A stretch of 64,000 bases of DNA, taken from the NCBI GenBank assembly GCA_947589415.1, contig CANQBP010000006.1, positions 1-64,000 on the forward strand, given 5' to 3'. Positions 42,490-57,236 of this stretch are shown one piece after another (the stretch's first letter is position 1; each line of letters begins with the position of its first letter). Source of the stretch: an uncultured Clostridia bacterium. Its GTDB lineage: Bacteria; Bacillota; Clostridia; Oscillospirales; Acutalibacteraceae. The position numbers and the translations under genes were made by a program. The notes beneath the pieces were generated by a model. That model did no database searches. It was not told the DNA's origin and saw only the letters and a list, made by a program, of their open reading frames with translations.

Positions 42490-43266
42490 TCATACTATTT
42501 GCGGTCGGTATATATAAAATTCTCCGTAATTGCAAAATCCGAGTCTTTTATAAAAAAACTCATTTTCCTTCCCTGCCGTCATAATAAATATGTTTCTTTT
42601 ACCAAGTCTGTTTATCAGTAAGCTGATGCTCAGCGAACCGTATCCGAGCTTTCTGTATTCGGGGTGTGTGCATACGGCACCGATTATAGCAGAATTATCC
42701 GTCATGGCAGTTGTCATGGCATACGATACTAATGTATCACCCGACATAACTGCACAACAGTCTGCACATGAATGACGAAGATTATGAGATGTGTCAAGAA
42801 TGAAATCCTCGTATGACGGACTCTCAAAACCTTTGCCTCCGCACATCTCCAAAAGTTTATGTACAGATGATAAATCGGGGGAAAAATCCGCCGTACAATT
42901 GCCGATACGACAGTCAATGATTTTTTCCCTCTCCAATTTCATTACAAAACCGCATTCGCTGTTTTCAAACAGTTTTCCCACGCTTAAAACACTTGAAGCG
43001 CCGACAATATTGACAAATTCCGCTATTTCGTCAACATCGGCATTTTCACCGAGCCATACAGTCATATCCCCGCCGTATTTTACTAAAACAGCCGCCGGGA
43101 CATTCTCTTTATCATACTGTACCCAAAGTGAAATAAGACCGCTATAATTTCCGTAGCCGTTTATAAGAAACAGTATTCGGCATGAGCATATATCTGCACA
43201 TTCGCTGCAAAGCGCGGAAATCACACTTATTTTTTCTTTATCCCCGCAGTCTGCATAATAAATCAT
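42490..43266 (-). CDS. GNAT-family N-acetyltransferase
   Basis: C-terminal CTHPEYRKLGYGSLSISLLINRL; start likely MIYYADCGD. Confidence 0.75.
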   Translation of the reverse strand: MIYYADCGDKEKISVISALCSECADICSCRILFLINGYGNYSGLISLWVQYDKENVPAAVLVKYGGDMTVWLGENADVDEIAEFVNIVGASSVLSVGKLFENSECGFVMKLEREKIIDCRIGNCTADFSPDLSSVHKLLEMCGGKGFESPSYEDFILDTSHNLRHSCADCCAVMSGDTLVSYAMTTAMTDNSAIIGAVCTHPEYRKLGYGSLSISLLINRLGKRNIFIMTAGKENEFFYKRLGFCNYGEFYIYRPQIV

Positions 43267-44291
43267 ATGCTGCCTGCTATATTTTCGGCAAGTGCATATA
43301 CAATTCTGCATACCGACCCTGCATCATCTTCAAATATCATGCTGCTTGAAGAATGAAGATACCTGCACGGTACTGACACGGCAATAGTACGCACACCGCC
43401 CCTTGAACGATGTATTGCCCCCGCATCATTTCCGCCCGCAATCATTGTTTTCGTCTGTATCTTAATATTTTTTTCCTTAGCTATATTCATTGCAAGGGCA
43501 TAGTATTCCTTATCATAAATAGTTGATCTGTCCATAAAGGAAACGACTGCGCCATTTCCTAAAATGCATACCCTTTTTTCATCTTCCGCAGCAGGAAGAT
43601 CCGCCGCCGTTGTCGCCTCTATTACTATTGCACTGTCCGGTGCAACGGTGTATGCCGCAACTGTCGATCCTCTCAGACCGACTTCTTCCTGAACACAAAA
43701 AACAAAATACATATCATACGGCAATTCCGATTTTATCATATTGATAAGTACAAAACAACCAAAACGATCGTCAATAGCTTTTCCTATTATCCTACCGTAT
43801 TTATTTTCATACGGACTGTCAAATACCGCACTGTCGCCGGGACGAACGTATTTTTCGGCTTCCTCTTTATTCTTTGCGCCAATATCTATACAAAGCGTTT
43901 TCACGGGCGGATTTTTCCCTTTCCCGTCCGAATCTGTCAAATGAATCGGTGTTGAGCATACCGAACCGGGAATTTTATCTTTGCCTACCAAAAGCTGTTT
44001 CGCAAAAACCGCACTATCGTTAATTCCGCCTACACATTCAAATTTTAACATTCCGTTATCAAGTATATCCGTTATAATAAAACCGACTTCATCCATATGT
44101 GCGGAAAGCATAAGTTTTCTTTTTGCCCTTTCTTTTCCTTTTTTGAAAACTATCACATTGCCCATAGGATCAACATTGATTTCGTCGGCAAAGGGACGAA
44201 TTTCATCAAGAATGATATTTGCGACCGCCTTTTCGTCACCCGATATCCCGCACGTTTTACACAATTTTTCAAGAAGTCCGATATCTTTCAT
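43263..44291 (-). CDS. M42-family metallopeptidase
   Basis: LSAHMDEVGFIIT; AIDDRFGCFVLI; CVQEEVGLRGS; GGNDAGAIHRSRGG. Confidence 0.94.
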   Translation of the reverse strand: MKDIGLLEKLCKTCGISGDEKAVANIILDEIRPFADEINVDPMGNVIVFKKGKERAKRKLMLSAHMDEVGFIITDILDNGMLKFECVGGINDSAVFAKQLLVGKDKIPGSVCSTPIHLTDSDGKGKNPPVKTLCIDIGAKNKEEAEKYVRPGDSAVFDSPYENKYGRIIGKAIDDRFGCFVLINMIKSELPYDMYFVFCVQEEVGLRGSTVAAYTVAPDSAIVIEATTAADLPAAEDEKRVCILGNGAVVSFMDRSTIYDKEYYALAMNIAKEKNIKIQTKTMIAGGNDAGAIHRSRGGVRTIAVSVPCRYLHSSSSMIFEDDAGSVCRIVYALAENIAGSI

Positions 44292-45314
44292 TTAAAAAGC
44301 TCCTCCCTCTGAAATATATACGAATAAAATCTCTGCAGCTTTTTCTATATCTCCCATATAAACCGTTTCCGTTTGTGTATGCATATTTTTTACCGGAACG
44401 GATAATACACCGCACGGTACTCCTCTGCGGGAAATTGAAATTCCGTCCGCATTGGTTCCCGTATTTCCGCCGTCCGTTTCAAAATCACAATCAGCACCGA
44501 TTTTATGTGCAATATCAATAAGCCTGTCCGTGACCTTTTTTGAAAGCACGGGAGCTATGCTGATTATTGCACCGCAGCCGTGTTCCCCGCTTTTTTCCGA
44601 CGGCACACCCGACTGTTTGGCAAATCCGACATCGACAACTACCGCCTCATCGGGTGCAAGTTCAAAAGCCGCTGTTTTTGCTCCGCTTTCATTTGTTTCC
44701 TCTTGTGAGGAAAATACGAGGGATACCCTGCACGGCAAGTCCTTTCCCGAAAGTTTTTCGGCTAATCCTATAAGTGCGGCACAACCGGCACGGTTATCAA
44801 GCGCTGACACGGTGACTTCATCATTCAGTAATTCTCTGAAATTACTTTTCACGATTATGCTGTCGCCAAGATTTACGAGCCGTTTTACCTCTTCGGGAGT
44901 CATGCCGACATCTACCCATATACTGTCACGGCTTAACGGTTCTTCCGATTTTGTAAGGTGAGGCGGCATTACACACACAACACCCAAAATATCCTCTTTG
45001 CCGTTTACCGTAACCGCACTTCCCGGTAAAGCACGCAAATCCACACCGCCTACGGGTTCAGCCTTTATAAATCCCCTTTTATCTATATAAGTTACGGTAA
45101 GACCTATCCTATCAATATGAGCATCTATCATTATATGGCGGCAACTGTTTCTGTCGCCCATTTCGGCTATAATATTCCCGTTTGACATTCTCACGGAGTT
45201 TGCCTTTCCGTCAAGCAGGCTTTTTATAATATCATACATATCACTTTCTCTGCCCGACATACCCTTTTCCGTGCATAACTTTTTGAGTATCTCTTTCATT
45301 CTTTTAATTCTCAC
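44292..45314 (-). CDS. M42-family metallopeptidase (second copy)
   Basis: IDAHIDRIGLTVTYI; ALDNRAGCAALIGLAE; SSQEETNESGAKTA; GGNTGTNADGISISRRGVP. Confidence 0.9.
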   Translation of the reverse strand: MRIKRMKEILKKLCTEKGMSGRESDMYDIIKSLLDGKANSVRMSNGNIIAEMGDRNSCRHIMIDAHIDRIGLTVTYIDKRGFIKAEPVGGVDLRALPGSAVTVNGKEDILGVVCVMPPHLTKSEEPLSRDSIWVDVGMTPEEVKRLVNLGDSIIVKSNFRELLNDEVTVSALDNRAGCAALIGLAEKLSGKDLPCRVSLVFSSQEETNESGAKTAAFELAPDEAVVVDVGFAKQSGVPSEKSGEHGCGAIISIAPVLSKKVTDRLIDIAHKIGADCDFETDGGNTGTNADGISISRRGVPCGVLSVPVKNMHTQTETVYMGDIEKAAEILFVYISEGGAF

Positions 45315-45749: not shown

Positions 45750-47143
45750 CTACTTCATTTCATTCACTATTCTCTTAAAGTGCAATCCTTTCTCCGCAAA
45801 ATTTTTATACATATCGAAACTCGCACTTGCGGGTGACATAGCGACTATATCGCCGCTGACAGCATTTTCCCTTGCAGCAGCCACGGCCTCCTCCATATTG
45901 TTTACACGTATTATAACCGGATTATTTTCGCAATAATTCGGTGCGGCTTTTACGGCAGCTTCTATTTTATCAGCCGTTGCTCCGAAAAGAATAAGAACCT
46001 TAACCGTATCGGGTACTGCCCTTCCCATATCGTCATACGGGATTTTTTTGTCATAACCGCCTGCAATAAGTATTATTTTCTGTTCAAACAGCGACAGCAT
46101 ACCCTTTACTGTTCTTGTAGGACTTGTGCCAATGGCGTCATTATAGTACCTCACACCATTAAACTCCCTTACAAGCTCTGCACGGTGTTCAACACCCCCG
46201 AATGTCCTTGCAGTCTTTATGATAGTTTCCTTATCGGCCAATCCCCAAACTGCGGCAATGGCTGCCAGATAATTTTCTATATTATGAAGTCCCGGAATTT
46301 TTATGTCCGAAGCAGTCATTATCTCGGTTTCTTTTCCGTATTCATTAACGGTTATTTTTCCGTCATCACTCATATATACACCGTTTTCGGGCTTATCCCT
46401 GCGTGAGAAGAAATATACACTTCCCCTTGCCTCATCTTTAAAGGAGCAGACAATATCATTATCCAGATTAAGCACTGCCTTACCAAAAGCGTTTTGGTGC
46501 AGTATTATATTTTTCTTCGAGTCCGTATATTCCTGCATATCCTTATGGATATCAAGATGATTTGGAGCAAGATTTGTAACAACGGCAATATCGGGACTCT
46601 TTCTCATAGATATCAGTTGAAAGCTCGACAACTCAACAACTGCTATATCATCAAATTTTATGCTTTCTATATCCGGCAGAAGCGGTCTGCCTATATTTCC
46701 GCCGAGATGTACGTTATAGCCTTGAGCCTTGAGAATCTCGGAAATTATAGTCGTTGTTGTTGTTTTCCCGTCACTTCCCGTGACCGCAATTATTCTGCAC
46801 GGACACAAATCAAAGAAAACTTCCATTTCACTTGTGACGACCGTACCGTGTTTTCTTGCCTCAACCAGTTCCGGCATATAGAATTTCATTCCCGGTGTAC
46901 GGAATATAATATCCGCACCGATATCTTTTAAATAATTTTCGCCAAATCTGAGTTGTGCGCCGTATTGTTCGGCAAGCTCGGCATTTTCTTTCAATAAGCT
47001 GCGCTCCCTTTTATCACAAGCAAGCACATCGGCACCGTATTTTTTAAATAATTTTATAAGCGGCAGATTACTTCCTCCGATACCGCAAAAAGCAACCTTT
47101 TTACCTTTTACATAATTAAAAAAATCAACAATTTTACTATCCA
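45750..47143 (-). CDS. murD: UDP-N-acetylmuramoylalanine--D-glutamate ligase
   Basis: VTGSDGKTTTTTIISEIL; NLAPNHLDIH; YYNDAIGTSPTRT; start likely MDSKIVDFF. Confidence 0.94.
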
Positions 47144-47433
47144 TAAATACAATCTCCCCCAAACAAAAATCAAAAAACACTCTGCTTTTTAATTATATGA
47201 CAATCCACACCAAAAATCAAGCCGAACTCATTATCGGAAAAAACCCCTTTGCCAAAACTAAAGTTTCTCCCTGTACCGTTTTTTCAAAAACTATATTTTG
47301 TGATTAAAATTACATCGGTTATGCGGCACATATTTTCAAAGGTTGATTTACATACAAACCGTAGGGTCATTCCGACTACACGTCCTAATACCACAAGAAC
47401 CGACTTGAGTTTTTTATCCCCATTTAAGCATTA

Positions 47434-47480: not shown

Positions 47481-48227
47481 TCAATTATTTTTATCAATGA
47501 CCGGGCCGGATATCAGCTTTGCATATACAAAACATCTGTACGGGGTCAAGTTAAGCTCGTCAAAAGGATAACAGGTGTACATTATGAGATTTTCATAATT
47601 AAGGCTGAAATCATATGCACTCGAATCGGTACTTTGTTTAACTTGAATATCCGTTATTTCATATGTATATGTTCCGTAATATGTCCTTATGATGACTTTT
47701 TGACCTTTTTGGGCATATTTAAAGCCGTTAAACGCGGTATTGTTATGCCCTGCAATCATTACTGTTTTTCCGTATCCGGGAATATATCCGCCGCTGTACA
47801 TACCAACGCCGTTATTTAGCTCGTAATTTCCATCTCCGAAATAAAGCGCCGTATATATCTGGCAGTCCTCAATTATAACCTCCCCCAAACGCTGACCGTA
47901 ATAGGGATATGTTACAGATGACAGAGGAATATTTTTTTGTTCTTTCGGTTTTATATCCAAGACGGTCTTTTCCTCATGTACACTTTCCTCTTTCACGGCA
48001 CTGCTTTCCTCAACAGGTACAAAAATATCGTGACAATCGGGATCTATACTTATATCCTCACTGTTAAAATATGATCTGCTCATTTCGGAAAATTCTTTAA
48101 AACAGGGATATAATGCGCCTAAACTCAAAAAAAGGATTAGTACACAAAAGACAACGGGAAGAATTATAAAATTCAACCCGTCTGCTAAATGCTTTGAAGA
48201 GCGACCTTTTTTCATAAAATCAGCCAC
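47481..48227 (-). CDS. Sortase (class not assigned; class D-like)
   Basis: N-terminal TM; VMIAGHNNTAFNGF (His), LIMYTCYPFDEL (Cys), TPYRCFVYAK (Arg). Confidence 0.88.
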   Translation of the reverse strand: MADFMKKGRSSKHLADGLNFIILPVVFCVLILFLSLGALYPCFKEFSEMSRSYFNSEDISIDPDCHDIFVPVEESSAVKEESVHEEKTVLDIKPKEQKNIPLSSVTYPYYGQRLGEVIIEDCQIYTALYFGDGNYELNNGVGMYSGGYIPGYGKTVMIAGHNNTAFNGFKYAQKGQKVIIRTYYGTYTYEITDIQVKQSTDSSAYDFSLNYENLIMYTCYPFDELNLTPYRCFVYAKLISGPVIDKNN

Positions 48228-48254
48228 CTTTTTATCATACCTGTCAACACGATC

Positions 48255-49118
48255 TCAACGACCTATGGCCTTAAGATATTTCTGACGGTATACAACGAAG
48301 CCAATCACGGATAAAAACAAAAGTATCCCGGCAAATATCCAAAAATACATAAACAACGAATTAAAATATCCTACAAAAAGGTTATACAAAGAACGCGTAG
48401 CCAAATTTATCTTTGGAATTATCCCGCTCGAATACACAACTATCGGTACAACAGCCACGCTGAGAAAACCGGCTCCAAGACCGTATGTAAGGTATCTGTA
48501 TCGGCGATGTTTATATCTATTGGTGAAGAATATAATCGCCGCAACCGCCAGCACCGCTGCTGCAATTCCGATAACAGCAACTGTTAAAGGCGTATCAACA
48601 TTTTTGATATATTTCGCAAGAACCTCGAAAAACGGTATTTTTACCGTTTTTACATAGATAGACGAAGCCTCGTTGACAAAATGCAGAATACTGTTTTCAT
48701 CTGCCTTTTTATTATCAATATTATTCTCATCAATATAAACATTAACTGCATCGATCAAACTTTGCTTAAATTTATCCGTATCAACAAGCTCACTCGAACC
48801 GGTGTAAAAAGCCGATATGTATGTCCTTTCAATCTCCACCATATCAAGACCTCTTACAAAATCATCAAAAAATTCATCCGGCAAGCCGCTCGCATGACCG
48901 AGATCCTGCAACTCATCGCATAATTCATCTTTCGTCATTTCGTAATAACCCGAATTAGCCATTGATTCGAGCATGAAATCCTTTGAGAAAAACGTAAACT
49001 TCAAAACAAGACATACCGAAAGTAAAAAAAGCAAAAATCCGAGTATAAATGAAAGGAAACCGTAAACCACGGACTTAAAATTAAATCTTTTTCCGGAATC
49101 CGACATACTGCACCTCAC
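48255..49118 (-). CDS. Hypothetical multi-TM protein between two sortases
   Basis: TM1, extracytoplasmic domain of about 140 aa, then about three TM helices; start coincides with the sortase stop. Confidence 0.6.
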   Translation of the reverse strand: MRCSMSDSGKRFNFKSVVYGFLSFILGFLLFLLSVCLVLKFTFFSKDFMLESMANSGYYEMTKDELCDELQDLGHASGLPDEFFDDFVRGLDMVEIERTYISAFYTGSSELVDTDKFKQSLIDAVNVYIDENNIDNKKADENSILHFVNEASSIYVKTVKIPFFEVLAKYIKNVDTPLTVAVIGIAAAVLAVAAIIFFTNRYKHRRYRYLTYGLGAGFLSVAVVPIVVYSSGIIPKINLATRSLYNLFVGYFNSLFMYFWIFAGILLFLSVIGFVVYRQKYLKAIGR

Positions 49119-49832
49119 TTAATGTTTATTATCCAGAGCAGGCCCCGATACAAATTTCGCATATACAAAACATCTTTGCGGTGTAAGTCCCAACTCATCA
49201 AAAGGATAACAGGTATACATTATCAGATTTTCATAATCTGCTCCAAGATTACAAGCATCGACATCATCTTCGTTTACAATTTTTATGTCATTTATTTCAT
49301 AAACATAATTTCCGTAACTTGTACGTATCTTAACCTTCTGTCCCTTCTCTGCATATTTAAGACCGTTAAAGAAGGTATTATTATGTCCGGCAACAAGTAT
49401 TGTTTTTCCGTAACCGGGAATGAAGCTTCCCGTAAACACACCTACACCGTTATTAAGCTCGTTTACTCCGTCATTGAAGAACAGCTTAGCTTCAATCTGA
49501 CAGTCTTCAATAATCAGCTCTCCGAATTGGTCGCCGTATGACGGGAACTCAACTTGTGACATTGGCACTACTTTTCGTTCGGATGAGGAATTTTCTTTAT
49601 CTTCATCTTCATCTTCGTCCTCTTCCTCTATCGGAACAAAAATATTGTCATATCCTGTCGAAAAATCTCTCTCGCCATCCGAAAAGAACATTTGAGCCAT
49701 AGAAATAAAATTACCCGACGCCGAATAAACCGCAGCCGTGCTTATGCCGATTATAAGCACACAAAAGATAATGGGAAGAATTATAAAATTCTTCCCACCT
49801 ATCGAACGATGTGAGGTTCGATGCTTATGCAT
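49119..49832 (-). CDS. Sortase (paralogue)
   Basis: TILVAGHNNTFFNGLKYA, LIMYTCYPFDELGLTPQRCFVYAK; acidic EEEDEDEDEDKE linker. Confidence 0.9.
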   Translation of the reverse strand: MHKHRTSHRSIGGKNFIILPIIFCVLIIGISTAAVYSASGNFISMAQMFFSDGERDFSTGYDNIFVPIEEEDEDEDEDKENSSSERKVVPMSQVEFPSYGDQFGELIIEDCQIEAKLFFNDGVNELNNGVGVFTGSFIPGYGKTILVAGHNNTFFNGLKYAEKGQKVKIRTSYGNYVYEINDIKIVNEDDVDACNLGADYENLIMYTCYPFDELGLTPQRCFVYAKFVSGPALDNKH

Positions 49833-50409
49833 CTACGGACTCTTTCTTAGAAGCCTTTGCAAGGTAGATACCTGCTGCCGATACCATAAGGATACCGACA
49901 CCTGCAACTGCTGCTACGGAAGGAACGTCGAAACCTGTTGTTTTGATCGGGTCATTGCTGCTTGAAGGACCACTGCTGCTGCCGGGAGTCTTATCGCTGG
50001 GAACAGAAACGACAACCTTACCGCCCGAAAGCGATACCTTAACGCCGAGATTTGCATTATCAGAAGCAGCCTGAGCATAACCCATGAGCTTATCCTTGTC
50101 GATTTCTGCAAGACTCTTAGCACCGGACTGAGCAACATAATCCTTAGCTGCATCAATCTGAGTGATGATAGCGTTAGCCTGATCATCAGTAAGATCTACA
50201 TCATTGAGGAGATAGTTCTCAGCCTCGTTAATTCTTGCCTGCGGAAGAGATACGGTTTTGCCGTTGCTAAGTGTAACACCACCCTTAAGCTCCGTCATAA
50301 CCTTTTCCTCAGCAGCATTAAGACCTGCTGCAGAAGCAACAGCCGTTGCGGAAACTGCAACTATTGCAGAGAGCATAGCCGCAGAAAGAACCTTAAGTAC
50401 TTTTTTCAT
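49825..50409 (-). CDS. Secreted cell-surface protein, candidate sortase substrate 1
   Basis: Signal peptide MKKVLKVLSAAMLSAIVAVSATAVASAAG; C-terminal DPIKTTGFDVPSVAAVAGVGILMVSAAGIYLAKASKK (motif, hydrophobic, basic tail). Confidence 0.75.
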   Translation of the reverse strand: MKKVLKVLSAAMLSAIVAVSATAVASAAGLNAAEEKVMTELKGGVTLSNGKTVSLPQARINEAENYLLNDVDLTDDQANAIITQIDAAKDYVAQSGAKSLAEIDKDKLMGYAQAASDNANLGVKVSLSGGKVVVSVPSDKTPGSSSGPSSSNDPIKTTGFDVPSVAAVAGVGILMVSAAGIYLAKASKKESVDA

Positions 50410-50426
50410 TGGTAATTACTTCCTTT

Positions 50427-50447
50427 CTATAAATATGAATTGGACAT
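50427..50447 (-). promoter_or_regulatory. Leader micro-ORF MSNSYL* upstream of surface protein 1
   Basis: ATGTCCAATTCATATTTATAG with SD-like GAGGGG upstream; stop abuts the AAAGGAAG SD of the main ORF. Confidence 0.35.
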
Positions 50448-50540
50448 CAGTGAGACCCCTCAAGAATCGCAAGCATTCAATTCGGGATATCCGTTCGTCA
50501 GCGAATACGCATACCGAAACTCCTAATCCAATCTGCTATA

Positions 50541-50569
50541 ATTATAATATCAAACAAACAATTTGTCAA
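50541..50569 (-). promoter_or_regulatory. Perfect sigma-A promoter for surface protein 1
   Basis: TTGACA - 17 nt - TATAAT (reverse strand). Confidence 0.8.
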
Positions 50570-50828
50570 TCACTAATTCACGAATAACAAAGTTTTGTAT
50601 ATAAACCTACAAAAATTCTCTTAAAATTCGCACATAAAATAAACAATTTGCATAAATTAACATCTATTTATTTACATTTTCGGAATTTTCAGTCATTAAA
50701 TATTACATTACATTTTACAAAATTTAACTTTAATTTCAGTGTTTTTTCCCTCACGGAAATATATCAAGTCTTTTATCACATATTTCTATAAATACCATAC
50801 TTTTCACAAATCAAACTTATAAAAAGTA

Positions 50829-50867
50829 TTTATCGGCGTCTGCGTTTTTTCCGCAAATGCCGATAAA
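50829..50867 (-). terminator. Terminator downstream of surface protein 2
   Basis: TTTATCGGC ... GCCGATAAA; TACTTTTT follows on the minus strand. Confidence 0.65.
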
Positions 50868-50967
50868 TTTCCGTTTCAAGACCCGCCAAAATCCGTACAG
50901 AATTTAAAGCGCATATGCATCAATATAAACTTTCGGGCTTTTATAACGAATTGCCACACATTCATAC

Positions 50968-51522
50968 TTATGCGCAAACGGAATTTTTCTTAGATGATCT
51001 TGCAAGGCAGACACCCGCTGCCGATACCATAAGGATACCCGCACCGGCAATTGCAGCGACAGAAGGAATACCAAAACCTGTTGTCTTAATAGGATTCTTG
51101 TCAGCCGTCTGATCTATACTCGGCTCGGGTATGCCTGCGACCCTAATACCAAGACCGGCATCATCTGAAGCCTTTTGAGCTATGGCCGCAAGCTGCATTA
51201 TCTGATCTTCACTAAGCTCCGAAAGACTTGAAACACCCGTACCGACAATGTATTCCTTGCCTTCATTTATACGTGCGATAATGGCATCAGCTTGTGCATC
51301 ACTCAAATCAACCTCATTAAGCAGATAGTTTTCTGCCTCGTTAATCCTTGCCTGCGTCAGATACAGTGTTTCTCCGTTTTCAAGCGTAAGACCGCACGTA
51401 AGCTCAGCCATAACCTTTTCCTCTGCGGAATTAAGACCTGCCGCAGATACGGCTGATGCTGCCGAAACCGCAACTATTGCGGACAACATGGCAGCAGAAA
51501 GAACTTTAAGCAGTTTTCTCAT
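50968..51522 (-). CDS. Secreted cell-surface protein, candidate sortase substrate 2 (paralogue)
   Basis: MRKLLKVLSAAMLSAIVAVSAASAVSAAG; C-terminal NPIKTTGFGIPSVAAIAGAGILMVSAAGVCLARSSKK. Confidence 0.75.
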   Translation of the reverse strand: MRKLLKVLSAAMLSAIVAVSAASAVSAAGLNSAEEKVMAELTCGLTLENGETLYLTQARINEAENYLLNEVDLSDAQADAIIARINEGKEYIVGTGVSSLSELSEDQIMQLAAIAQKASDDAGLGIRVAGIPEPSIDQTADKNPIKTTGFGIPSVAAIAGAGILMVSAAGVCLARSSKKNSVCA

Positions 51523-51652: not shown

Positions 51653-51681
51653 ATTATAATATTTAATTTGTGAATTGTCAA
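51653..51681 (-). promoter_or_regulatory. Perfect sigma-A promoter for surface protein 2
   Basis: TTGACA - 17 nt - TATAAT (reverse strand). Confidence 0.8.
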
Positions 51682-51865: not shown

Positions 51866-51895
51866 TTGACAGTATAATGTAAGGAATGTTATAAT
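51866..51895 (+). promoter_or_regulatory. sigma-A-type promoter for ybaK
   Basis: TTGACA - 18 nt - TATAAT. Confidence 0.75.
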
Positions 51896-51953: not shown

Positions 51954-52424
51954 ATGCGAAAAGAAATAAAAACAAATGCTATGCGTATTCTTGACAGTAT
52001 GAAAATACCGTACGAAAAGCATTGTTACAGTGAATCAATTTCGGGCTGCGACGTTGCCGCCGAACTCGGAGAGGACCCCTCTTGTGTTTTCAAAACCCTT
52101 GTAACAACAGGAAAAAGCGGCAAACATTACGTCTTTCTTGTACCTGTCGCAGAACATCTCGATCTAAAAAAAGCCGCAGCTTCAGTAGGAGAAAAATCCG
52201 TGGAAATGCTGAAATCAAAGGAGCTGTTTGCTCTTACCGGATATATACACGGAGGCTGTTCGCCGATAGGAATGAAAAAATTTTTTCCGACTGTTATACA
52301 TTCCTCCGCAAAGTCCTTACAGACAATTTTTTGCAGCGGAGGAAAAATAGGTCTGCAAATAGAGCTTACGCTTGAGTCCTTATCAAAGGCGATAAAGTTT
52401 GAGCTTCATGACATAGTAGTATAA
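51954..52424 (+). CDS. ybaK: YbaK/EbsC-type Cys-tRNA(Pro) deacylase
   Basis: KTLVTTGKSGKHYVFLVPVAEHLDLKKAA; GYIHGGCSPIGMKK. Confidence 0.93.
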   Translation: MRKEIKTNAMRILDSMKIPYEKHCYSESISGCDVAAELGEDPSCVFKTLVTTGKSGKHYVFLVPVAEHLDLKKAAASVGEKSVEMLKSKELFALTGYIHGGCSPIGMKKFFPTVIHSSAKSLQTIFCSGGKIGLQIELTLESLSKAIKFELHDIVV

Positions 52425-52534: not shown

Positions 52535-53488
52535 TTGATGTTAGAACATATCGAAGAGGCATACGGTGTACTTAACGAGGTCAATAAGGCAATTCTCGGA
52601 AAGGAAAATGAAATTATTGAAATAATGACCGCATTCCTTGCAAACGGTCATGTCCTTCTTGAAGATATTCCCGGAGTAGGAAAAACTACTCTTGCCCTTG
52701 CATTTTCTAAGGCAATGGGTATGGACTGCAAAAGGATACAGTTTACACCCGATGTAATGCCGTCCGACCTTACGGGATTTTCCGTGTACAGACGTGATAA
52801 AGATAAATTTGTATATCAGCCCGGCAGCGTATTCTGTAATATTCTTCTCGCAGACGAAATAAATCGTACTTCCCCTAAAACTCAATCTGCTCTGCTTGAG
52901 GTAATGGAGGAAAGGAGAGTATCCGTAGAAGGGGTGACAAGGAAAGTACCCTCGCCATTTTTGGTTATAGCTACACAAAATCCGTCGGGAACAAGCGGTA
53001 CGCAGTTCCTGCCGGAGGCACAAATAGACAGATTTATGATAAACATGGCATTGGGATACCCCGATTTTGAAAGTGAGCTTGAAATTGCCCGTTCCACGGG
53101 AATAAATTCACGCCTGCAAAACGTTTCACCTGTACTTACCAAAGATATTTTTCTTGAAATGCAAAATGATATACATAATGTATATATAAAAGATGAGGTT
53201 TACAGATATTTGCTTCAGTTAGTTGCGGCAACAAGAAATCACCCCTATATTGAAAGAGGTGCAAGCCCCCGTGCAACTATTGCTCTTGTTAAAATGTCAA
53301 AGGCATATGCTTGGCTCAAGGGAAGAAAGTTCGTCGTCCCCGGAGATATTCAAACACAAGTACCCTATGTGCTTAGCCACCGCATTATTCCGGGTTCGTC
53401 CGCAAAACTCGGAAACGTGGATAAGACCACAATTATAAAAAATATTATTCAAACAGTCGACCTGCCGTATATGGGAGCAAAAGTATGA
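52535..53488 (+). CDS. MoxR-family AAA ATPase
   Basis: LEDIPGVGKTTLALAFSKAMG; RIQFTPDVMPSDLTGF; LLADEINRTSPKTQSALLEVMEE; ATQNP. Confidence 0.96.
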   Translation: MMLEHIEEAYGVLNEVNKAILGKENEIIEIMTAFLANGHVLLEDIPGVGKTTLALAFSKAMGMDCKRIQFTPDVMPSDLTGFSVYRRDKDKFVYQPGSVFCNILLADEINRTSPKTQSALLEVMEERRVSVEGVTRKVPSPFLVIATQNPSGTSGTQFLPEAQIDRFMINMALGYPDFESELEIARSTGINSRLQNVSPVLTKDIFLEMQNDIHNVYIKDEVYRYLLQLVAATRNHPYIERGASPRATIALVKMSKAYAWLKGRKFVVPGDIQTQVPYVLSHRIIPGSSAKLGNVDKTTIIKNIIQTVDLPYMGAKV

Positions 53489-54576
53489 GAAAACTCGCCG
53501 CATTTATAATTATATTTGCTATCTGGTATTTTGCGGGTATGAATTTCCAGCCGAACCTTCTCACTGTATCGGTATGTCTTGCCGCTGTTGTTATTATATC
53601 ATTTATTTTTTCAAGAATAATAAGAAATAAGCTCGATGTGTACATACCTCCGCAGGAAAATCTTGCATATAAAAATACCGAAAACTCCCTGAAACTGACC
53701 GCGGAAAATAAAAGCAGTTTCCCTGTAAACCGTTTTGCGGCAAAAATTGAAATGAAATACAAGACCGACAGTAAGGGTACAATAAAAAAACTCAGCGGCA
53801 GCGCGGCAGGCAAAAATGACGGCAATACGGAGGCGGAATTTTATTTCAGTGCGCCGTACTGCGGTCTTATAGAAGCAAATATTAAAAAAATAAGAGTTTA
53901 CGACTATTTCGGCTTTTTTTCAAACTCAAAAAAACTGCGCCACGAAAAGCATGATATCTTCATAGTACCTCAAACAAAGGACATGAAAATTTTAATGCCC
54001 CCTTACGGAACATATACATCACACCCCGTTGCAGACTCATCTTCAAACAGTTCCGGAGATGACCATAGCGAAATACGTCTTTTAAGGGAGTACCGTGACG
54101 GCGACCTTATACGTCATATACACAAAAACATGACCGCAAAAACACAAAAGTTATGGATAAAGGAGTATAATAAGGAAAACGATTACATATTCGACCTTAT
54201 TCTTAATACCTCGGATGCGGCTATCACAACGGAATTGCTTGATTCACTGTATGAAATTGTTTTTGCCGTTCTCGGTACGCTTATTAAAAACGAGGTAACG
54301 GTAAAACTTCATTGGTACGATAAAAACGTAAACGGCATGAGAAATGCCGATATTTCCGATCAGGAAACTTTACTGAAAATTGTACCCGATTTATACAGGT
54401 CGGATATGAATTGTACAGCAGACGAATTTTATTATGCTTCGGGCAATCATGACAATGAAAATATGATGATAAATTCAAAGCTCGAATGGTATTTCGGGAA
54501 AAAACATATATATTCTTTTAACAAGGACAATATAGAAAATGATTTGATATGTAATGTTTTTGATTTGAGGAGGTGA
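53485..54576 (+). CDS. DUF58 domain protein
   Basis: Two N-terminal TM helices; IRLLREYRDGDLIRHIHKNMTAKTQKLWIKEY; between moxR and the transglutaminase gene. Confidence 0.85.
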   Translation: MRKLAAFIIIFAIWYFAGMNFQPNLLTVSVCLAAVVIISFIFSRIIRNKLDVYIPPQENLAYKNTENSLKLTAENKSSFPVNRFAAKIEMKYKTDSKGTIKKLSGSAAGKNDGNTEAEFYFSAPYCGLIEANIKKIRVYDYFGFFSNSKKLRHEKHDIFIVPQTKDMKILMPPYGTYTSHPVADSSSNSSGDDHSEIRLLREYRDGDLIRHIHKNMTAKTQKLWIKEYNKENDYIFDLILNTSDAAITTELLDSLYEIVFAVLGTLIKNEVTVKLHWYDKNVNGMRNADISDQETLLKIVPDLYRSDMNCTADEFYYASGNHDNENMMINSKLEWYFGKKHIYSFNKDNIENDLICNVFDLRR

Positions 54577-57236
54577 TTCGTATTAAGAGTATAAGGAAAA
54601 CCAAAAGCATAAAAATACACACGGTTAGGACGGATATTTCAAGGAAAGAACGCTCAAAACAGGAACGTATGCGTAAACTGCCGGACAAAAATCCCTTGCT
54701 GCTTATACTGTACCTTGCAGGGATTATCGGTATAATGACAGCAGCAAATACGGTGCTGAATATTGAAAATGAATATTTTGTTGCGGCAGTAATTTTTGTT
54801 GCTGTCATTAGTACACTATTGTGGTATGTTTATTTATATCATAACAAATACTTCAATTATATTGTTATTCCCGTGAGTGCGCTGCTGATCATATTGATTT
54901 TTTTTAATATAAATTCCGTAATGGAAAATATGCAGTCGCTGTACAGCGGTTCATTTACGGGACTGTCCCCTCTCATCACGATTGTTATTTCATATATGTG
55001 CGTATTGCTTATTTTTACATTGGAATTTATTTCCCGCAATCACTCCGTAATGTTTCTTATATGCGCCGCAATTCTCACATTCGGTCCAATCTTTCAGATA
55101 AACTTCTCCCCCTTAACGGTTATTTTGATTACTGCCTTTCAATTCGGTTTCATAGTACTGAATATGAACTCCGCCCCGTCCAAAAAAAGCCTTATAGTAA
55201 AAAAACACAGGAAAACCGGATTTCTATGTACGATCATAGCCGCTGTTACAATAACACTATGCTTTCTGCCGTCATTCGTTATAGAAAACATTTATGAAAA
55301 TGACATTCTATCTCATGTGTATTTTGTTGACGGTATTATACAGAATATCGGAAAATATTTCTCTAACAGAACCGAAAACAATATCATTGACGGATCGGTC
55401 AGCAGGGGAAATCTAAATTCGAGCGGAGATAAAATATTCAGTGCCGATCTTGTCAATGCCTTTGACAAAAATCTTTATCTGAAAGCGTTCACGGGCAAAA
55501 ATTACAACGGAAATAAATGGAATAACTCACTCGAATATTTCACGGAGGATAACGGGCTGTACTTATTCGACAACACTTTGTACTCGCCAAAATTTTATCC
55601 GAGTTCAAGCAATGACCCCGATTTTTATATGTACAACTCCAATCACCGCCCGCAATACTATTATCGTGAACATTTTGTTAATAATATCATACAAAACAGC
55701 ATAAATAATTTTTTCACAAAGCTCGATAATATATTTAAAGAACATGAAATAGATGCGGAAATTATATCTGTTACAAACAGTACAACGCCGGAAAGTTCCC
55801 AAAGCATAACCGTATACGGGACAAATGATTTTTGGGCAATTATCAGCTATAAAGAAGAAAGTATTGTTTATTCCGTAAATCAACAGGAAGCCGTAACCTT
55901 ATACCTTAATTTCGGAAGTATTCCGAATTATCCCTCAAAACTTCTCACAAGAAGTTCAGATGTTGTAAATTCAATATACAGCGACGGCATTTCAACCGAA
56001 TCATACGCTGACAATAATGTAAACAGAATACGCATTACACCGGAAAGGAATAAATCAATAAACGTTCTCGTTCCGTATTATTCGGAAAAAGATGAAGGTG
56101 ATATAGCGCCGGCTATCCCCTCCGTTTCCTTTTCATACGATACTTCTTTCGGAAATACCGAAACCGCAAGGCAGCTTTATGCCGCTAATAAATGGGAGGG
56201 CAGCAAAACATACGAAGATTTTATTGATGATTATATGTCTGAAATAAAAAATGAATATACATACGTTCCCTATCAAAATATGCCGCAGCTTACACGTTTG
56301 TGCAGTGAAACGAAACTTACGGAGCTTAACGAAATCACAACATTCATACTGTACACTCTTCAAACTCATGCCTCTTATTCAACAACACCCGGAAATGTTC
56401 CGTACAACAAAGATACGGTAGAATACTTCCTCTTTGAAAATCATAAGGGATATTGCGTTCACTATGCGACCGCCGCCGCACTTATGTACAGAATGTTCGG
56501 TATTCCGTCAAGATATGTTACCGGCTATACGATAAGCAATGATATTTTAAAAGCATCGGACAGTACAAACAGCACAAGCAGTGATTACAAATACAGAGCT
56601 GACGTCACGGACAAAATGGCTCATGCATGGGTGGAAATATTTTTAAAAGATTACGGCTGGGTGCCTGTCGAGGTCACACCGAATACTAACGGTGATATGA
56701 CAGCGGAATATCCGGGATATGATAGAAGTGAAATGAACCGCATAATGGAAAAATATGATTGGCATTTCAACAAACACAATGTTACAGACTCAGATGATCA
56801 GATTGACGCTGCAAACAGCGAAATATCTCCCACTCAAATCATGCTTATAATTTTCTTTAGTCTTATATTTGCCTCTATAATTTTTCTCCCCGTAAGACTT
56901 ATGTTCGTTTTGCGTAAACAAAACTCAATCGGCTGCCGTAAACTTTTTGACAAACTTATACGCTGTCTTCACTACTGCGGTCTGCTTACAGGGTTAAACG
57001 GCTCTGAAGAACACTTTGCGGAAGTTCTATGTCATGCGGTACCCGCGGTAAGCAGCAGCGACTCCGTACGTCTGGTAGAAATACTTCAAAAAGTCAATTT
57101 CTCCGAAAACGAATTTGTTGAAACCGAAGAAAGGGATTTTGTTCAGAAAATATACGAAAAATCAGCTAAGTATCTTTACAAAAATTTGAAATGGTATAAA
57201 AAACCGATATTCAGATATATTAAGTGCTTCTGCTGA
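54573..57236 (+). CDS. Transglutaminase-like membrane protein (TgpA-type)
   Basis: Multiple TM helices; core FENHKGYCVHYATAAALMYRMFGIPSRYVTGY ... HAWVEIFLKDYGWVPVEVTP; C-terminal TM. Confidence 0.92.
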   Translation: MIRIKSIRKTKSIKIHTVRTDISRKERSKQERMRKLPDKNPLLLILYLAGIIGIMTAANTVLNIENEYFVAAVIFVAVISTLLWYVYLYHNKYFNYIVIPVSALLIILIFFNINSVMENMQSLYSGSFTGLSPLITIVISYMCVLLIFTLEFISRNHSVMFLICAAILTFGPIFQINFSPLTVILITAFQFGFIVLNMNSAPSKKSLIVKKHRKTGFLCTIIAAVTITLCFLPSFVIENIYENDILSHVYFVDGIIQNIGKYFSNRTENNIIDGSVSRGNLNSSGDKIFSADLVNAFDKNLYLKAFTGKNYNGNKWNNSLEYFTEDNGLYLFDNTLYSPKFYPSSSNDPDFYMYNSNHRPQYYYREHFVNNIIQNSINNFFTKLDNIFKEHEIDAEIISVTNSTTPESSQSITVYGTNDFWAIISYKEESIVYSVNQQEAVTLYLNFGSIPNYPSKLLTRSSDVVNSIYSDGISTESYADNNVNRIRITPERNKSINVLVPYYSEKDEGDIAPAIPSVSFSYDTSFGNTETARQLYAANKWEGSKTYEDFIDDYMSEIKNEYTYVPYQNMPQLTRLCSETKLTELNEITTFILYTLQTHASYSTTPGNVPYNKDTVEYFLFENHKGYCVHYATAAALMYRMFGIPSRYVTGYTISNDILKASDSTNSTSSDYKYRADVTDKMAHAWVEIFLKDYGWVPVEVTPNTNGDMTAEYPGYDRSEMNRIMEKYDWHFNKHNVTDSDDQIDAANSEISPTQIMLIIFFSLIFASIIFLPVRLMFVLRKQNSIGCRKLFDKLIRCLHYCGLLTGLNGSEEHFAEVLCHAVPAVSSSDSVRLVEILQKVNFSENEFVETEERDFVQKIYEKSAKYLYKNLKWYKKPIFRYIKCFC

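Follow-up and report, generated by a model that had tools for sequence, protein, structure and literature searches.

A predicted surface-protein anchoring cassette with a Lys-type sorting signal and a conserved hairpin inside the sortase gene

A candidate anchoring cassette in an uncultured Clostridia bacterium

What do two small secreted proteins, two sortases, and one membrane protein do together when their genes lie side by side? The question is raised by the minus-strand locus at positions 47,481 to 51,522 of contig CANQBP010000006.1 (assembly GCA_947589415.1), which comes from an uncultured Clostridia bacterium of the family Acutalibacteraceae (genome of 2.29 Mb, 95 contigs, 96% complete). 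The stretch analysed, 64,000 nucleotides long, is referred to here as the window. The locus is probably a dedicated anchoring cassette, in which a promoter and an attenuator within the sortase gene would provide much substrate and little enzyme. A strong consensus promoter would drive expression of a small exported helical protein, giving much substrate mRNA, and a C-terminal signal (I/V-K-x-T-G, a hydrophobic helix, and a basic tail) would retain the exported substrate at the membrane. The neighbouring class D-like sortase would then cleave after Thr (Thr-Gly) and join the substrate to the cell wall, with the protein of four transmembrane (TM) helices, here called TMP, acting as an obligate sortase partner, e.g., a membrane platform or presentation factor. 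Most RNA polymerases would halt at an intrinsic terminator hairpin in the first sortase codons, and the sortase and TMP would come in small amounts from read-through. Substrate and sortase would each have undergone duplication in this genome. What sets the locus apart most is its non-canonical sorting signal and the hairpin within the sortase gene.

Gene organization and distribution of the substrate–sortase–TMP trio

Open reading frame (ORF) calling gave five consecutive genes.

50968..51522, minus strand: substrate A, 184 aa; signal peptide, mature domain of ca. 120 aa, IKTTG sorting signal, TM helix, and basic tail; local paralogue of substrate B
49825..50409, minus strand: substrate B, 194 aa; signal peptide, mature domain of four helices and a beta-hairpin, flexible linker, IKTTG sorting signal, TM helix, and basic tail
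49119..49832, minus strand: sortase 1, 237 aa; class D-like, catalytic His150, Cys208, and Arg220
48255..49118, minus strand: TMP, 287 aa; sortase-associated, one TM helix, an extracytoplasmic helical domain of ca. 120 aa, and three TM helices
47481..48227, minus strand: sortase 2, 248 aa; class D-like paralogue with an intact triad and no substrate gene directly upstream

An earlier sequence-only reading of the window had described these five genes as two paralogous secreted proteins, two sortases, and a 4-TM-like protein, and ORF calling bore out their coordinates. The substrates are 61–62% identical. Both sortases exceed the Pfam cut-off and keep His, Cys, and Arg, and four TM helices are predicted for TMP together with one helical extracytoplasmic domain. 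The substrate B gene shares 8 nt with that of sortase 1, which is directly adjacent to the TMP gene, and 27 nt separate the latter from sortase 2. Since 558 nt separate substrate A from substrate B downstream and substrate A is preceded by a consensus promoter of its own, the tight operon consists of substrate B, sortase 1, TMP, and sortase 2, in agreement with that reading. The TMP of relatives usually begins at the second Met, so the called GTG start of the window TMP may precede the true one by 12 nt. The sorting signal (IKTTG, hydrophobic stretch, and basic tail), the promoters, and the hairpin were absent from the earlier description.

The substrate profile (A1) and the TMP profile (A2) were searched against the same 300 genomes of the family. 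Counting strong matches only, substrate and TMP were each found at 58 places in 55 genomes, and at 50 of the 58 places the TMP gene was exactly one gene downstream of the substrate on the same strand. Direct ORF scoring added five complete trios (L098–L102), and one relative (L015) is Ruminococcus sp. zg-924 (Oscillospiraceae in NCBI). Outside the family and within the class, the cassette was rare, occurring in 5 other genomes among a sample of 391. The genes flanking the trio vary among genomes; therefore, the unit is the trio and not the surrounding region.

The sequence-only reading had interpreted the locus as a dedicated surface-display or assembly module whose small helical substrates match no familiar adhesin or pilin fold. 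The dedicated module stood, because substrate, sortase, and TMP are neighbours in ca. 55 of the 300 genomes, and the gene neighbourhoods of other genomes confirmed that the substrates co-occur with the sortases. The substrates are also small and predicted to be helical, and no curated family of Pfam or NCBIfam covers them. What did not stand was the anatomy of two substrates and two sortases as a defining feature: most genomes carry one small substrate and one sortase. Outside the window, an extra sortase was seen in just two close relatives (L003 and L004), and all these copies form a single clade. We rejected the doubled set as the unit, and substrate A and sortase 2 look like local duplications.

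Partial sets also occur. Two substrate-family proteins, L097 (G147:C182) and L107 (G017:C31), have no sortase neighbour and also no recognizable sorting motif, in line with the anchoring reading. Six sortase–TMP pairs (L091–L096, in G287, G133, G071, and G021) have no substrate gene, and their sortases lack at least two of the three catalytic residues. As these degraded sortases still lie beside TMP, we infer a physical association between TMP and the sortase fold. The upstream neighbours of these six pairs include dihydroxy-acid dehydratase-like genes. At L090 (G288:C34), a sortase–TMP pair with an intact triad lies beside a different, larger substrate (273 aa) whose C-terminal region has NPLGTQTGDN before the TM helix.

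Promoters and a hairpin inside the sortase gene

Consensus promoters were found upstream of both substrate genes, and a terminator-like hairpin was found within the gene of sortase 1.

51653..51681, minus strand: consensus promoter TTGACA-17-TATAAT of substrate A, matching 12/12
50541..50569, minus strand: consensus promoter TTGACA-17-TATAAT of substrate B and the operon, matching 12/12
49762..49800, minus strand: terminator-like hairpin with a T-rich tail, a proposed attenuator; 14-pair stem model with a 4-nt loop, at codons ca. 11–21 of sortase 1 (GGKNFIILPI)
48156..48179, minus strand: decayed copy of the hairpin core in sortase 2, with 2 mismatches and an interrupted stem

Among the upstream regions of substrates, 43 of 76 scored 11–12 of 12, versus 1.1% of shuffles and 3 of 80 upstream regions of TMP. 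Strong promoters at this place would make the substrate abundant. A third 12/12 consensus promoter, with an extended -10, lies at 51866-51895 (+) of the window, upstream of a gene for an aminoacyl-tRNA editing-domain protein (51954-52424).

Just past the stop codon of substrate B, the hairpin sequence is GGTGGGAAGAATTTTATAATTCTTCCCATT and then ATCTTTTG (49799-49770). Its RNA fold has -19.1 kcal/mol (z -5.3), and a G+C-containing stem is followed by a U-tract, as in an intrinsic terminator. The codons for GKNFIILPI are near-identical in ca. 20 relatives, with a synonymous identity of ca. 1.0 versus a mean of 0.48 elsewhere in the sortase gene. Pairing was far above the synonymous expectation (9.9 of 10 pairs versus 5.9 expected, standard deviation 0.28), and the stem contains the compensatory codon pairs GGG/CCC, CGG/CCG, and AGG/CCT. 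Changes on both sides affected 4 pairs and 12 cells, a cell count reached by 0 of 500 shuffles. In distant members with unrelated N-terminal peptides, different perfect hairpins with T-tracts stand at the same place. Strong hairpins were detected at 50 of 70 substrate–sortase junctions, versus 0/416, 0/403, and 1/530 gene-internal windows (1/1,349 in all); elsewhere, the same scan found them at 3 of 70 sortase–TMP junctions and in 14 of 40 regions after TMP. All 50 junction hairpins lie within the sortase ORF, 6–18 codons from its start, at or beside the membrane helix. Such a placement within the coding sequence fits the overlap of the substrate and sortase genes. Sortase 2 has no upstream substrate, and the decay of its hairpin is expected if the function of the hairpin belongs to the substrate–sortase junction. 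An Rfam scan of the locus gave no match up to an E-value of 1.

The hairpin might be a real RNA element other than a terminator, i.e., a site for RNase processing or 3' stabilization, or an element that slows translation at the sortase start. Its position in the first sortase codons, just past a start that overlaps or abuts the substrate stop, would suit such roles, and certain tails hold just 5 T in 8. We nevertheless consider this explanation rather unlikely, because strong hairpins also appear after TMP, where operon ends are expected, and because Clostridia are known to place internal terminators between abundant and rare products (PMC9045158). In the ATP-binding cassette (ABC) importer operons of cellulolytic Clostridia, internal stem-loop terminators set the stoichiometry in this way, a stem-loop after the abundant first gene lowering downstream expression (PMC9045158). 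Termination in the sortase gene would have the same effect on the anchoring cassette; the importer stem-loops are intergenic, whereas the hairpin here lies within the downstream coding sequence.

Class D-like sortases

The window sortases scored 69.6 and 70.5 bits with PF04203 (cut-off, 26.6), and the catalytic His, Cys, and Arg (His150, Cys208, and Arg220 in sortase 1 numbering) were invariant in 46 family sortases. Class D profiles gave the best E-values in the family, with class C far behind and class E much lower; the class E profile gave 36.1 and 30 bits against a cut-off of 160. The NCBIfam class D cut-offs (NF033746 and NF058671) were not reached, sortase 1 scoring 95.9 versus 165 and 103.3 versus 140 bits and sortase 2 lower. 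By sequence, the best PDB match was 2ln7, and the window motif is IKTTG instead of the cognate class D motif (LPxTA or LPQTG). Judged from sequence, the enzymes are best described as class D-like, the nearest class by profile and solved structure, with scores below the curated cut-offs.

A class C-like sortase could instead link copies of the small protein into a fibre or a chain resembling a pilus; the second substrate would then be a minor subunit and the second sortase a specialized linker. The doubled set in this genome is compatible with this idea, as is AbpA-SrtB of streptococci, where ladders form from a small helical protein that likewise has a dedicated sortase (PMC4974636). On the other hand, a Pfam search for pilin domains found neither Cna-B nor any other type in 45 substrate members, most genomes have a single substrate and a single sortase, and the sortases score far better as class D than as class C. 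Polymerization is thus improbable, and for the assembly part of the sequence-only reading we found nothing in favour of a polymer.

Two other sortases were noted. At G000:C2:138343-138858 (L055:7018-9876), an unusual sortase fusion of 952 aa places a class B-looking sortase domain between an additional N-terminal region of cytoplasmic appearance and repeat units at the C-terminus. Another sortase at G000:C22:18-236 (L054) ends at the contig end and has HPYW after the catalytic Cys; it could pair with the VPxTG proteins at C1 and C55.

A candidate sorting signal with Lys in place of Pro

Both substrates carry the same C-terminal motif.

51076..51090, minus strand: IKTTG motif of substrate A
49933..49947, minus strand: IKTTG motif of substrate B, with Lys at the Pro position of LPxTG

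The A1 alignment shows a signal peptide, the C-terminal motif, a hydrophobic helix, and a basic tail in that order, as in a protein with a sorting signal, except that Lys replaces Pro. Lys occupied the proline position of LPxTG in 61 of 77 non-redundant substrates, with the general form [I/V/L]-K-x-T-[G/D]. In L100 the motif reads VKKTG, and in L101 it reads IEQTG. Lys, Thr, and Gly of the motif were each at least 90% conserved. Three members (L110, L111, and L030) have a canonical LPFTG or LPPTG at the same place, indicating that the Lys-motif position is homologous to the LPxTG site. Pro occupies position P3 in ca. 90% of published sorting signals, the main exception being LAxTG of class E (PMC5148588); LGATG and NSKTA are among the signals listed for Bacillus anthracis (PMC3208642).

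A signal-profile search of the window's genome returned only the two locus substrates (E-values of 1e-19 and 1e-16), and the next match was at 0.03. Other surface proteins of this genome end in VPVTG or VPQTG. With IKTTG confined to the locus and VPxTG used elsewhere, the substrate–sortase pair looks like a private channel in this genome.

The class E enzyme SrtE1 of Streptomyces coelicolor has been proposed to use Tyr229 for accepting a non-Pro residue at P3 (PMC5148588). In our alignment, residue 133 of the sortases corresponds to a Phe of Clostridium perfringens SrtD, 17 residues before the catalytic His, and hence to this Tyr in the beta3/beta4 loop; PMC5148588 names this Phe as Phe92, and PMC4498605 names the catalytic His as His109. 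Tyr was present at residue 133 in 49 of 58 sortases with a Lys-type substrate versus 1 of 12 others, and all three sortases of LPxTG-type substrates have Ser. The SrtE1 proposal makes sense of this pattern, which is confounded by ancestry. Only three independent pairs lie on supported branches, leaving a tree-aware test without power, and a link between Lys and Tyr133 is offered here as a hypothesis.

The motif might not be a sortase signal at all, in which case the proteins would remain single-pass membrane proteins and the sortase would act on something else. The replacement of Pro by Lys speaks for this, as do L123–L125, which lie next to a sortase and have no recognizable motif. We regard it as quite improbable, because the position and context of the motif match a sorting signal, LPFTG or LPPTG stands at the same place in three members, Thr and Gly have been conserved, and the substrate genes are strictly linked to those of the sortases.

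Several points weigh against the proposed anchoring cassette itself. We know of no precedent for Lys at the Pro position, and a literature search by title and abstract, with most subscription papers outside its coverage, gave no paper concerning a KTTG sorting motif. Sortase 1 of the window has Phe at the candidate specificity residue 133, and a strong hairpin was not detected at 20 of the 70 junctions. LAETG is not processed by the class A and D enzymes on which it was tried (PMC5148588 and PMC4498605), so recognition of Lys by these sortases is only putative.

Substrate fold and the TM protein

The AlphaFold2 model of the substrate consists of four helices and a beta-hairpin (predicted local distance difference test, pLDDT, ca. 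90), followed by a disordered linker to the motif. The TMP model is all helical, with one TM helix, the extracytoplasmic domain, and three TM helices. Neither model had a PDB match in Foldseek at an E-value of 0.001, PDB sequence searches with both profiles gave nothing credible, and neither protein matched a Pfam or NCBIfam family. Single weak matches of TMP to a CbtA transporter and a Trep_Strep protein were below the cut-off and were rejected as TM-helix noise.

A Lit-like role (lipoprotein intramolecular transacylase, PF07314), in which TMP would modify lipids or lipoproteins and the cassette would alter its substrate instead of anchoring it, is very improbable: TMP and Lit share the order of one TM helix, an extracytoplasmic domain, and three TM helices, one ORF (G011:C41) was matched by both profiles, and weak similarity was found with Foldseek (7b0o; probability 0.69, but TM-scores of only 0.32/0.40 and an E-value of 0.52) and hhalign (87% over 60 columns, in the first TM region only), but PF07314 matched none of 31 TMP members at an E-value of 0.01, the A2 alignment has no invariant residue, and the substrate alignment has no Cys at the signal-peptide end.

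Comparison with known systems

Dedicated sortase-substrate operons are already known. A class D-type sortase shares an operon with its own substrate in B. anthracis (SrtC-BasI, LPNTA) and C. perfringens (SrtD with an LPQTGS protein) (PMC3208642 and PMC4498605). In contrast to these operons, the motif here is [I/V]KxTG and not LPxTA or LPQTG, the sortases are under the NCBIfam class D cut-offs, a TM protein is always attached, and there is an intragenic hairpin. Class E resembles the cassette in having a P3 residue other than Pro and the equivalent Tyr, but P3 is Lys here and not Ala, the class E profile scores far below class D, and phylum and substrates differ. AbpA-SrtB of oral streptococci likewise pairs a small, mostly helical surface protein with a dedicated sortase encoded at the same locus, and its signal is also unusual (PMC4974636); however, the AbpA signal is LPKTS without a hydrophobic tail, the sortase is of class B, no TM partner is reported, and the AbpA structure was not among the PDB matches.

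As far as we have seen in the literature searched, no description exists of the Lys-type signal, the constant TM partner, or the conserved hairpin within the gene. The evidence is about evenly balanced on a more specific proposal: that these genes form an anchoring channel made of a class D-like sortase subfamily specialized for [I/V]KxTG and an obligate membrane partner, in which a terminator hairpin fixes the ratio of enzyme to substrate, constrains the codons of the sortase membrane anchor, and has persisted as a structure across a large bacterial family despite changes of sequence. If true, this would be a sorting signal with a charge instead of the usual Pro, bearing on how sortases choose substrates and possibly providing an orthogonal ligation tag. 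It would also be a natural case of a terminator within a coding sequence fixing such a ratio, and it predicts an abundant surface protein in gut and rumen bacteria together with a sortase partner protein.

Neighbouring genes

Adjoining the cassette at 52535-57236 (+) of the window, genes for a MoxR-type AAA ATPase, an unassigned 363-aa protein, and a transglutaminase-core membrane protein stand in a row, parts of which also adjoin the cassette in several relatives (e.g., L005–L007, L011, L016, and L018). On the other side, a Mur ligase gene (45750-47180), which flanks the cassette also in L003, L004, and L018, is followed by two tandem M42-type aminopeptidase genes (43263-45314, minus strand).

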